Shown piece by piece: positions 2,032-9,985 of a stretch of DNA of 33,448 nt. This DNA comes from Candidatus Colwelliibacteriota bacterium (GTDB lineage Bacteria > Patescibacteriota > Minisyncoccia > UBA6257 > Colwellbacteraceae). Numbering within the stretch: position 1 is the first letter of the stretch; each line of letters opens with the position of its first letter. Below the pieces are notes generated by a model, which saw only the letters and a list, made by a program, of their open reading frames with translations, was not told the origin of the DNA and ran no database searches. A program made the position numbers and the translations under genes. The stretch spans positions 1 to 33,448 of the forward strand of contig JAUYKE010000012.1 in the NCBI GenBank assembly GCA_030700125.1. Reading direction: 5' to 3'.

Positions 2032-2124
2032 GCTGTCGGACAGCCTTATATTAGGAACGAAGCAAAAGGGCAATCTATCGTCATTAGATGACGATAGACA
2101 TACTAAGGCTGTCGGACAGCCTTA
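2032..2124. repeat. Cluster of three hairpins: GCTGTCGGACAGC, CTATCGTCAT-TAG-ATGACGATAG, TAAGGCTGTCGGACAGCCTTA
   Basis: 2032-2044, 2075-2097 and 2104-2124; all perfect stems. Confidence 0.8.
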
Positions 2125-2134
2125 ATATGGAAGG

Positions 2135-4439
2135 CTAATCTACCACGATAGTGGAGGAGGCGCTGCGGGTGGTGGCGCCTTCATTGTCGGTGGCGATAGC
2201 GGAGATGGTGTGGGTGCCGACGGAGAGCGGGATCTGGGCGCTGAAAGGTGAAGTGGTATCCGTCACAACATCGGTGGCGGTGTCGGTGAAGACAACTTGG
2301 GTGATATTGCCGTCATAGTCGGAGGCGGTGGCGGTGGCAGTGGTAACGGCAGCGGAAGAGCTGGCATTGTCCCCTTTCCAGAGGAAGGTGAGACTGGAAT
2401 CATAAGGGAAGTCTAGTGGGTTAGGATCTGTTGAGCCGAAGCCGTTGATGGTGGAGGCGTCTGCATCAGAAAGGGTGCCGGTGCCAGCGGCAAACCAGAA
2501 CATCTGCCCGTCTACTTCGCCGGTGGCGGCAGCGTTACCAATGTCGAGTGTCGTGGCGGCAAGCACTGGGATGTTATTGTTCGCGACTTTCGTAAACGCC
2601 GATCCGTTGACCGAGATCCCGCTCTGGGTCGCCGCCCATGTCCCGATGACTGTCAACAAATCATTGAGTGCAAGTGCTGGTGTCGAAATCTCCGCCTCAG
2701 CTCCGACCCCGGACGCTTTACGGCGTAGCGAAATTACGTCTGTCGTAATGCCCATGTGTATCTCAAGACGGTCATTATCGGTATCATACCAGCGGGCGAG
2801 GCGCGGAGTGCCGGACGGTTCTGCGACGCGCGACCAGCCGATCTGAATACGGGTGGCGAACCATCCTTGGGTCGTATTAATTAATGTCGTCGATGCCTGA
2901 AGGCGACCGCCATTCCGATTAGCCTCGGCACCGTCCGTGTGGATATATGGAGTTGCGACCCCTTGCGAACGCTCCCATTGCAAACCGTCAATATAGATAA
3001 ACTTGCCGGCAGAGGGGGCTGAAGCGCTATCAACCAGGAATGTGCCCGCCATGTCTCCGGCAACGGGTGTTGTCATCACCCAGATACGCTGCCACTGATT
3101 AACCACTAACATGTCGGCGTTCAACTGGTTGCTGGACGCCGACCCAACGAAGTCCGGTGTCGTAATCCGTACCTGACCACCATCCCAGTCAGACGGGATA
3201 TATACCCACGCCGACGCCCAATGAATAAGACTGGCTGTCACACCGTTAATTGTTCCTGTCAGTAACGTCGCTGAGTCAGCATAGGTGACCTTCGCTGAGG
3301 CGACTCCAAACTTCGCCTGCGTAGTCGAGCGAGCTAAAATGTTTGTGCCACCCGTCGTCCAGCCTGTTGTATTCGTTTCAAGGCCACCGTTTGTAATCCT
3401 GTTCGTGCTGGCCTCCCACATACCAAAGCTCGATTCTGTCGTACGCCCGTCTCCCTGGGTATTGGTGGTTCTTGTAGCGTCAGTTATCTCATTGCCGGAA
3501 ACGGTAAGAGCCGGGGTGGAACTGGCAGAAGGGACACCGCTTAAGGAGATAGTGGGAGGAGAGTTGGTTCTTCCGCCACCGGTTGCCCAGGAGACCTTGA
3601 AGGTGACGGGGTAGGAAGTTGTTTTGGCGCCTTTGTCGTCCGTGGCAACGGCGGTTAAAGAGTAATCGCCGACAGCGATGTTCACCCATCTCATACTCCA
3701 GGGAGCTTGAGAGACGGCGCCGAGGAGGTTGGTACCTTCAAAGAATTCCACTTTACCTATTACGCCGTCGTCATCTGCGACAGAGGCGATAATCTCAACT
3801 GAAGCCGGGGCGGTGAGGGTGGCACCGTAGGGATTGATGATGTTCACTCTGGGAGGAGAGTTGGAGACGGTTGATGTGGGGGAAAGAGAAGCTGTCGAGG
3901 TGGGAGTGGTGGCAGGAATTATGACGGGAGGAGGGGTGGCTGGAGGAGGCTTTAGAGCCGGGAATTGAGAAGGAAGGACATCCGAAGCAAGAGGAACATT
4001 AAGAGCGATTTCTCTATTGATGGAAGCTCTGGTCTTGGGGCCGAAAACGCCGTAGCCCCGGAGGCCGGGGCTGGCAATGCCGGTGCGTTCCTGGTAACGC
4101 TGGACGGCTTTCTCCGTGAGGGGGCCGAAATATCCGGTGACTAGTCCTTCGGGGTAGATGTCGGGGTATTTGGAGAGAAGTCTTTGCAGTTTGGAAACCT
4201 CGCCGTTTGTTTGGAGATTAGTGAGGCCCCGGTAGAGGTTGGCCTGGAAAGGGGAGATTTCTGGCTGCTGGCCGGTAGGGGCGGAAAGAAAGGCCTGGAG
4301 AGCTTCAATCTGTTTCTGAATGGCTTGAATTTGACTCTGAATCTCCTGAAGGGTGATTGCCTCGGCTGTTGGTAGAGAAGGGATTATAAGAGAGAGAGAG
4401 AAGGGCTATGAAACTGGGAAATACGTATTTATTTCGCAT
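2135..4439 (-). CDS. Secreted peptidoglycan-binding / Ig-like / CBM-LamG surface protein, frameshifted inside the signal peptide
   Basis: ORF track shows 2135..3847 (GTG start), but the frame stays open to 4405 (…SLSLIIPSLPTAEAITLQEIQSQIQAIQKQ…LQRLLSKYPDIYPEGLVTGYFGPLTEKAVQRYQ…). The only plausible ATG (4439, MRNKYVFPSFIALLSLS) is in another frame; the frames meet at an (AG)6 tract at 4389-4400. Confidence 0.75.
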
Positions 4440-4524
4440 GTCAGAAGATATATTCAATAGGAAACCGGGCTAGAACAACCCATTCAATTATAGCAGATTC
4501 TTCGGACGCGGAGTTAATACGGGG

Positions 4525-4598
4525 ACGTCCGACATCCAGGCGTTAGCGTAATATTGGGGATGTCGGACGTTCGATAATATATGGCTGTCGGACAGTCA
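4525..4598. repeat. Related TGTCGGACA-core hairpins on the other side of the LamG gene
   Basis: ACGTCCGACATCC (4525-4537) / GGATGTCGGACGT (4558-4570), and CTGTCGGACAG (4585-4595). Confidence 0.75.
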
Positions 4599-8306: not shown

Positions 8307-8996
8307 CTATGCCAATGAATATTTCCCTTTTGCTACGTCTCTCATCACCCGGCCGTTCTCCAATAAAATCACTCTCCGCCCCAATTGATTAACAATTTCT
8401 TTATTGTGAGTTGCCAAAAGTACCGTTGTTCCCAGCTGATTAATCTGTTGAAGCAAAGTAATAATTCCCAAGCTGTTGAAAGGATCTAAATTACCGGTTG
8501 GCTCGTCAGCCACTATCACATCCGGCCGATTGACCATCGCTCTTGCAATCGCCACCCGCTGCTTTTCTCCACCGGAGAGTTCGTGGATAAAATTTTCCGC
8601 CTTATCAGCCAAGTCCACCAAATCAAGCACTTCCTCCACTAAGTCATCTATTTCCCTCTGTGGCCGGCCAGCCACTTCCAATGCGAAGGCCACATTTTCA
8701 TAAGCGGTCTTAGTCGGCAGCAGTTTAAAATCCTGAAAAACAACTCCAATATGCCGCCGCATTTCCGGTAGCTGCTTCGGCTTCATTTCACTAATATCAT
8801 AATGACCAAAAATAACCCTTCCTTTTGAAGGTTTCTCTTCTCCGATTAAGAGCTTAATAAGAGTGGACTTCCCTGCCCCTGATCGCCCCACAATTGAAAC
8901 AAACTCTCGGGGATTAATTTTAAAGTTTACGTCCACTAAAGCAGAGTGGTTACTGCTGTTATAATAGATTTTAGAAACGTTCTGGAAATTAATCAT
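8307..8996 (-). CDS. ftsE: Cell division ATP-binding protein FtsE
   Basis: 229 aa; Walker [10 protein letters not shown], signature [14 protein letters not shown], Walker [13 protein letters not shown]. Confidence 0.95.
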
Positions 8997-9985
8997 CTAC
9001 TTTCGCGCTGACAGTTAGTAATTTTAGTCCAGCTTCTATGAATTCTTCAAGCCCTCCCTCTAAAACCTTGTCCACATCTCCCGTTTCCACGCCAGTCCGG
9101 TGATCTTTCACCATTTTATAGGGATGGAGGACATAGGAGCGGATTTGGTTGCCCCATTCCGGTTTTACCCTAGTTTTTAGCTCTCCAAGCTCTTTAGCTT
9201 GGTGGGCTTCCATTAACTTAACGATTTTCGCTTTCAAAAGATTCATTGCCCGCTCCCGATTTCTCGCTTGGGAACGTTCGACTTGCGAACTGGCCGAGAG
9301 ACTCGTCGGCAAGTGGACTAATCTTACCGCAGTTTCCACCTTATTCACATTCTGGCCGCCCGGCCCGGATGAGCGGAAAAATTCGGCTTTGATGTCTTTC
9401 TCCGGAATTTTAAGTTGAGCTGCCTCCACTTCCGGTAGCTCCGGCAATACCTCTACCTGTGCAAAAGAAGTATGGCGGAGCCCTTTAGCGTCATATGGCG
9501 AGATTCTTACCAAACGGTGGACGCCGTTCTCCCCTTTCAGAAACCCATAGGCGTAATTTCCCTGGATCTCGATTGTATTATCGTCAATCTCTTTCGTCTT
9601 CCATCCGCTGGAGGTGGCATACTTCACGTACATTTGAGAAAGCATGTTAGCCCAATCTTCGGCGTCTTTCCCACCAGCACCGGCATAAAAAGATAAAACC
9701 GCCGTACCGGAATCGTACCTCCCTGAAAGCAAAGTTTTAATCTCAAATTTTCTTAATTTTTCTTCCGAATCAATCGCCTCGAATTCATCAATCAAATTGC
9801 GAATCATCCCCGCCTCCTTACTTTTCGCTTCGGCTAACTGACGATTTTCTTTCCATATATCCGGACTAGAAATTTCCGCCTCTAGTTCTTGAAGTTTTAT
9901 CCTCTTACTGGAAAGGTCAAAGACGCTCGCCTAAGCGGCGAGCCAACTCTTGTAAATTTTGGTTATTATTTTCTTTATTTGTCAT
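8989..9985 (-). CDS. prfB: Peptide chain release factor 2, expressed by programmed +1 frameshift
   Basis: ORF track starts at 9807 only. Upstream ATG at 9985 reads MTNKENNNQNLQELARRLGERL then CTT TGA C (9922-9916); shifting +1 gives DLSSKRIKLQELEAEISSPDIWKENRQLAEAKSKEAGMIRN… joining the listed ORF. SSGPGGQNVNKVETAVRLVHLP is the GGQ motif. Confidence 0.95.
9916..9922 (-). promoter_or_regulatory. RF2 programmed frameshift site CUU-UGA-C
   Basis: CTTTGAC on the minus strand, preceded by a purine-rich AGGCGAG. Confidence 0.92.

Follow-up and report, generated by a model that had tools for sequence, protein, structure and literature searches.

A surface-protein gene out of frame at a (CT)6 tract in its signal peptide: a candidate slippage switch in a Colwelliibacteriota genome

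Phase variation based on repeats is known classically from pathogens and other host-associated bacteria. Switching can be placed in the signal peptide itself: the Helicobacter pylori gene oipA is switched by CT repeats in the sequence that codes for it (PMC10564699), and the opa genes of Neisseria carry CTCTT repeats in the leader peptide and switch at a rate of about 1e-3 per cell per generation (PMC3960869). In a hypervariable gene of Gracilibacterium, the repeats are in-frame 9-mers in the mature protein (PMC6851277). For Patescibacteria, Parcubacteria and Saccharibacteria, our search of the open-access literature returned no report of frame switching by phase variation or slipped-strand mispairing. 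These tiny bacteria are probably episymbiotic, and if their surface layer is switchable, then genetically uniform populations would show mixed surfaces to hosts or phages.

We analyze here a gene of a Candidatus Colwelliibacteriota bacterium that lies on contig 34 of a fragmented draft genome (555 kb in 41 contigs, 96% complete). We refer to this contig, 33,448 nucleotides in full, as the window, and the features of the locus are collected in Table 1. On the minus strand, the frame that begins at the ATG encodes the start of a signal peptide and enters a (CT)6 tract, past which it reads YNPFSTNSRG... and stops after 44 amino acids. The frame of the surface protein has no internal stop up to its own stop codon (2135-2137) and is shut by a TAG immediately upstream of the tract. 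Its earliest ATG, GTG or TTG is the GTG at 3845-3847 (codon 187), which is already beyond the peptidoglycan (PG)-binding domain. The initial annotation had described both a signal peptide that goes out of frame in the tract and a mature frame with no start codon near its beginning, and our reading of the minus strand agrees on the two points.

Table 1. Features of the locus and of its surroundings, in window coordinates.
Feature	Position	Strand	Basis
ATG start codon, signal-peptide frame	4437..4439	-	read from sequence
Start of signal peptide, MRNKYVFPSFIALLSLS	4389..4439	-	signal peptide at the same place in paralogues and homologues, directly before coil and PG-binding domain
(CT)6 tract, site of the frame break; sole (CT)6 of the genome	4389..4400	-	
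In-frame TAG that shuts the mature frame immediately upstream of the tract	4406..4408	-	
Surface-protein open frame, 756 codons plus stop, without usable start	2135..4405	-	
PG_binding_1 (PF01471)	4073..4207	-	Pfam, residues 67-111, E 7e-9
Big_7 bacterial Ig domain (PF17957), best stretch	3650..3853	-	Pfam, residues 185-252; PDB Ig-domain matches
TATAAT, possible -10 box	4487..4492	-	read directly; no good -35; missed by consensus scan, weak
Palindrome CTGTCSGACAG, upstream of gene	4585..4595	.	
Palindrome CTGTCSGACAG, downstream of gene	2109..2119	.	
Palindrome CTGTCSGACAG, downstream of gene	2033..2043	.	
prfB with CTT TGA C site	8989-9930 and upstream	-	

As in oipA, a CT repeat occupies the 5′ signal-peptide part of a surface-protein gene, where a change of length puts the mature protein out of frame; the difference is that switching of oipA has been documented across hundreds of isolates, whereas the window gene is one assembly, with 6 units, of an unrelated protein. 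It shares with opa, which is switched by slippage, a pyrimidine-rich coding repeat inside the leader peptide, but the opa unit is a pentamer, and opa is a multigene family of outer-membrane proteins whose switching rate is known. The Gracilibacterium gene is alike in that it codes for a CPR surface protein and has a variable region made of repeats, with stem-loops on its flanks, but its repeats are in frame and there is no frame switching.

The frame beyond the tract is truly coding, as its Pfam domains indicate (PG_binding_1 and two Big_7 stretches). PDB sequence matches are mostly to bacterial Ig-like domains, and the PG-binding part resembles a muramoyl-pentapeptide carboxypeptidase. Of the PGB/LamG label in the initial annotation, the PG-binding half holds and the LamG half was not confirmed: Pfam, PHROG, PDB and phage tblastn gave no Laminin_G or LamG match in the region, and a structure model made without an alignment (pLDDT 31) was unusable. 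At least five other proteins in the same genome have related PG-binding or Ig parts. In the paralogues and family homologues that share it, the intact architecture is an in-frame signal peptide, followed by a coil (LQxQIxxLQ) and the PG-binding domain, and all 80 of the (distant) homologues that we fetched from GTDB contigs have an in-frame start. All of these parts are present in the window gene, in that order, but split over two frames. It fits a PG-binding surface protein family of Parcubacteria, with the signal peptide counted only across the frame break, and we read the encoded product as a secreted, probably wall-anchored protein.

How unusual are this tract and this break in their own genome? 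(CT)6 is found once in the 555 kb, at this gene. For the remaining statistics we used a sample of 263 kb, taken as stretches, in which the tract is the sole dinucleotide run of at least 5 units (2.0 expected for at least 5 units, and 0.2 for at least 6). Given the peptide and the codon usage of the genome, a CT run this long has P = 0.0026, and among 199 genes this is the only one with a run longer than 7 nt in its first 90 nt. A coding-potential scan of the 194 coding ORFs in the sample found only two in which coding begins well before any start codon. One is this gene; the other, prfB, has the canonical CTT TGA C programmed +1 frameshift site and serves as positive control of the scan. Since it is very unlikely that a break would land by chance on the sole long tract, slippage made the break, whether in living cells or in the data. 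The remaining repeats of the sample (homopolymers of 7-8 nt, 6- and 7-mer repeats) are inside intact ORFs. One of these ORFs holds the heptamer AATTTCG four times (L054:5569-5596) and is ksgA-like (16S rRNA dimethyladenosine transferase) by its N-terminal sequence.

Slippage in the data would mean a sequence or assembly error, with the true tract length in frame. Tandem tracts are the typical sites of such errors, and the genome is a draft in many pieces. Yet among the 194 ORFs there is no other unexplained break despite homopolymers of 6-8 nt by the hundred, which argues against a general problem with indel errors and makes a random assembly error unlikely as the source of this break. Moreover, a 12-nt dinucleotide run is seldom misread by short-read sequencing, and this too counts against an error, provided that the data are short-read. 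Altogether we consider an error at the tract to be distinctly unlikely.

Programmed frameshifting, transcriptional slippage or a non-standard start could also allow the protein to be made in spite of the break. Recoding does exist in this organism, as the frameshift in prfB, on the same contig, demonstrates. But the shift site at the tract, CTC TCT TAT, does not match any known slippery site and offers no stop codon for pausing, the local RNA is unstructured (z +0.8), and no ATG, GTG or TTG lies between the TAG and the PG-binding domain. With neither a slippery site nor an RNA structure, we reject a programmed frameshift at the tract, and expression by any of these routes seems highly improbable.

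There is no second lesion in the 756 codons downstream of the break; one would be present with 95% probability after about 36 neutral mutations (assuming 5% indels). The out-of-frame state is then either recent or recurrent. We also searched with the models for MutS_I (PF01624) and MutL (PF01119) in 27 genomes of the family to which the window belongs and in 14 control genomes: none of the 27, the window genome (G000) included, has a match, while 11 of the 14 controls do.

We lean, with modest confidence, toward the reading in which the assembled allele is the OFF state of a short locus that can be switched by slippage. Mispairing of slipped strands at the (CT)n, within the hydrophobic segment of the signal peptide, would have put the assembled allele out of frame; translation from the ATG would lose the frame in the tract and soon terminate, so that no protein would be exported. 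The length change is probably reversible in the population, as a change of whole units in a tandem tract, in a lineage without MutS and MutL and with a long undamaged frame downstream, and the locus would then act as a contingency switch of low rate. On this reading the slippage would take place in living cells, and switching would benefit the cell. Two properties of genes that vary in phase by simple sequence repeats are present, a tandem repeat exactly where the frame breaks and an intact coding frame beyond it. One assembly represents the locus, and no length polymorphism was observed there, which weighs against switching. As for tract length, (CT)6 is unique in the genome and sits at the break, yet 6 units is the chance level across the order.

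This last statement comes from a scan that took in 244 genomes of the order and covered CT/AG only; other dinucleotides were compared just within the retrieved loci. Tracts of at least 6 CT/AG units occur in 56 of the genomes, often with 8-23 units (23 being the longest among those read). A single 6-unit tract is all that 13 of the 56 have, the window genome among them, and the rest have longer or several tracts. A Markov model expects 0.17-0.40 tracts of at least 6 units per Mb, and the observed 6-unit tracts are at or below chance, which means that length alone proves nothing for ours. At 8 units and above the model expects 0.001-0.003 per Mb, or fewer than one in the whole order, versus about 30 distinct tracts seen; chance cannot explain the long tracts of the order. 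In 601 kb of relatives' loci that were not picked for tracts, there are zero dinucleotide tracts of at least 6 units of any kind. In the 23 genes that we read in detail, the phase across the tract is out in 16 and in for 7, near the 2:1 of free drift.

A direct comparison of the window tract among relatives found no orthologue of the gene in the genus (represented by this genome only), the family, the order, the GTDB contigs (single-protein scan) or viral contigs, and what the order offers is other genes with longer CT/AG tracts. A direct parallel is L250 (genome G049), where the gene for a Laminin_G_3/DUF2341 protein has (CT)10 in the part that encodes the hydrophobic core of its signal peptide. 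It is the same dinucleotide in the same place of a signal peptide, also out of frame, and it raises the odds that the window allele is a switchable OFF allele. Another DUF2341 protein with a signal peptide and a tract, L191, is in frame. On either side of other tracts, Pfam identifies RVT_1 reverse transcriptases, bAvd, pilin-like N_methyl with FGE-sulfatase or Gly_rich_2, a GT10 fucosyltransferase, an FkbM methyltransferase and a type I restriction specificity subunit; the remaining tracts are intergenic or unclassified. Signal peptides, pilin-like proteins, the fucosyltransferase and retroelement genes are among the frames that the tracts interrupt.

After most of the long (CT)n tracts, which lie in otherwise unrelated genes, CG comes next (often as CGT), and CGT or TTA/CTA stands before many of them. 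We suspected a hairpin beside the long tracts and dropped the idea, since p ≤ 0.1 was reached by 17% of left flanks vs. 10% expected. The order's long-tract genes (L250, L237, L211, L184, L248 and the reverse transcriptases) share with the window gene the dinucleotide and, mostly, the loss of phase, and some are surface proteins with signal peptides; they differ from it in having 7-23 units, far above chance, mostly with CG next, and in that many belong to diversity-generating retroelements. With only 6 units, flanks CTT and TAT, and no CG after it, the window tract falls outside the long-tract class (at least 7 units, then CG), and these same properties weigh against reading it as a switch. 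Being shorter and without the CG flank, it is kept out of that class, though it may work alike. The window genome has no long CT/AG tract, its single tract being the one of 6 units, and so gives no sign of a general contingency strategy.

A rival possibility is that the gene is a recent pseudogene, in which one slippage event at a chance CT run left an allele that is now fixed and decaying, without any switching. The chance frequency of 6-unit tracts agrees with it, CT runs are favoured by a signal peptide rich in Leu and Ser, and the paralogues mean that loss of the gene may be tolerated. Against this stand the undamaged downstream codons and the recurrence across the order of equivalent genes with tracts, and we regard a pseudogene as rather unlikely. 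Of the phase-variable surface protein first put forward in the initial annotation, what can be upheld is that the surface-protein gene is genuine, that its signal peptide loses the frame at a tract prone to slippage, that its family has neither MutS nor MutL, and that relatives carry longer (CT/AG)n in equivalent genes, mostly out of frame; the switching itself is the part to which the modest confidence above applies.

Tracts in the order also recur within diversity-generating retroelements. The phase is lost in all nine of the tract-bearing reverse transcriptases that we examined (L239, L243, L251, L252, L253, L196, L199, L183, L200), where the tracts favour two sites, and tracts are also found in a bAvd gene (L249) and in pilin-like targets (L242, L245, L251:4557-6230). 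L251 has a complete element: a target with tract, an Avd-like protein, a template repeat and a reverse transcriptase with tract. The mismatches between template and variable repeat fall at template A in 17 of 17 cases in L251 and in 9 of 9 in L252. The reverse transcriptase tract differs in length between a pair of related genomes that share 92% identity over 2.1 kb, being (CT)12 plus an imperfect extension in one (L195/L251) and (CT)21 in the other (L196). In the sampled part of the window genome no diversity-generating retroelement was found.

The order-wide pattern resembles a frame switch that acts on targeted hypermutation. We propose, tentatively and as something short of our favoured expectation, that in this order contingency tracts of (CT/AG)n turn surface proteins and all parts of the retroelements (reverse transcriptase, Avd, pilin-like target) on and off, helped by the lack of MutS and MutL (a result for the family only), and that the window gene is a short-tract member. 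If this pattern is true, with a frame switch atop the hypermutation, cells could silence the mutator and keep a useful variant.

Two further arrangements are seen elsewhere in the order. In genome G015, two contigs carry near-identical leaders, with (AG)20 and (AG)19, and there is a diverged third with (AG)10 (L236, L237, L238), possibly a duplicated, switchable leader cassette. At L203:570-587, a (CT)9 between two genes lies directly before a TATAAT and is a possible transcriptional switch.

Around the window gene, a promoter-like match across the tract (4383-4412) was dismissed, with 1 found vs. 2.4 expected in shuffled sequence. The palindrome CTGTCSGACAG has three copies in the genome, all of them around this gene, and elsewhere in the family it is found in one other genome only. 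The copies could be cassette ends, terminators or operators. A related inverted repeat is present at 4525-4570.
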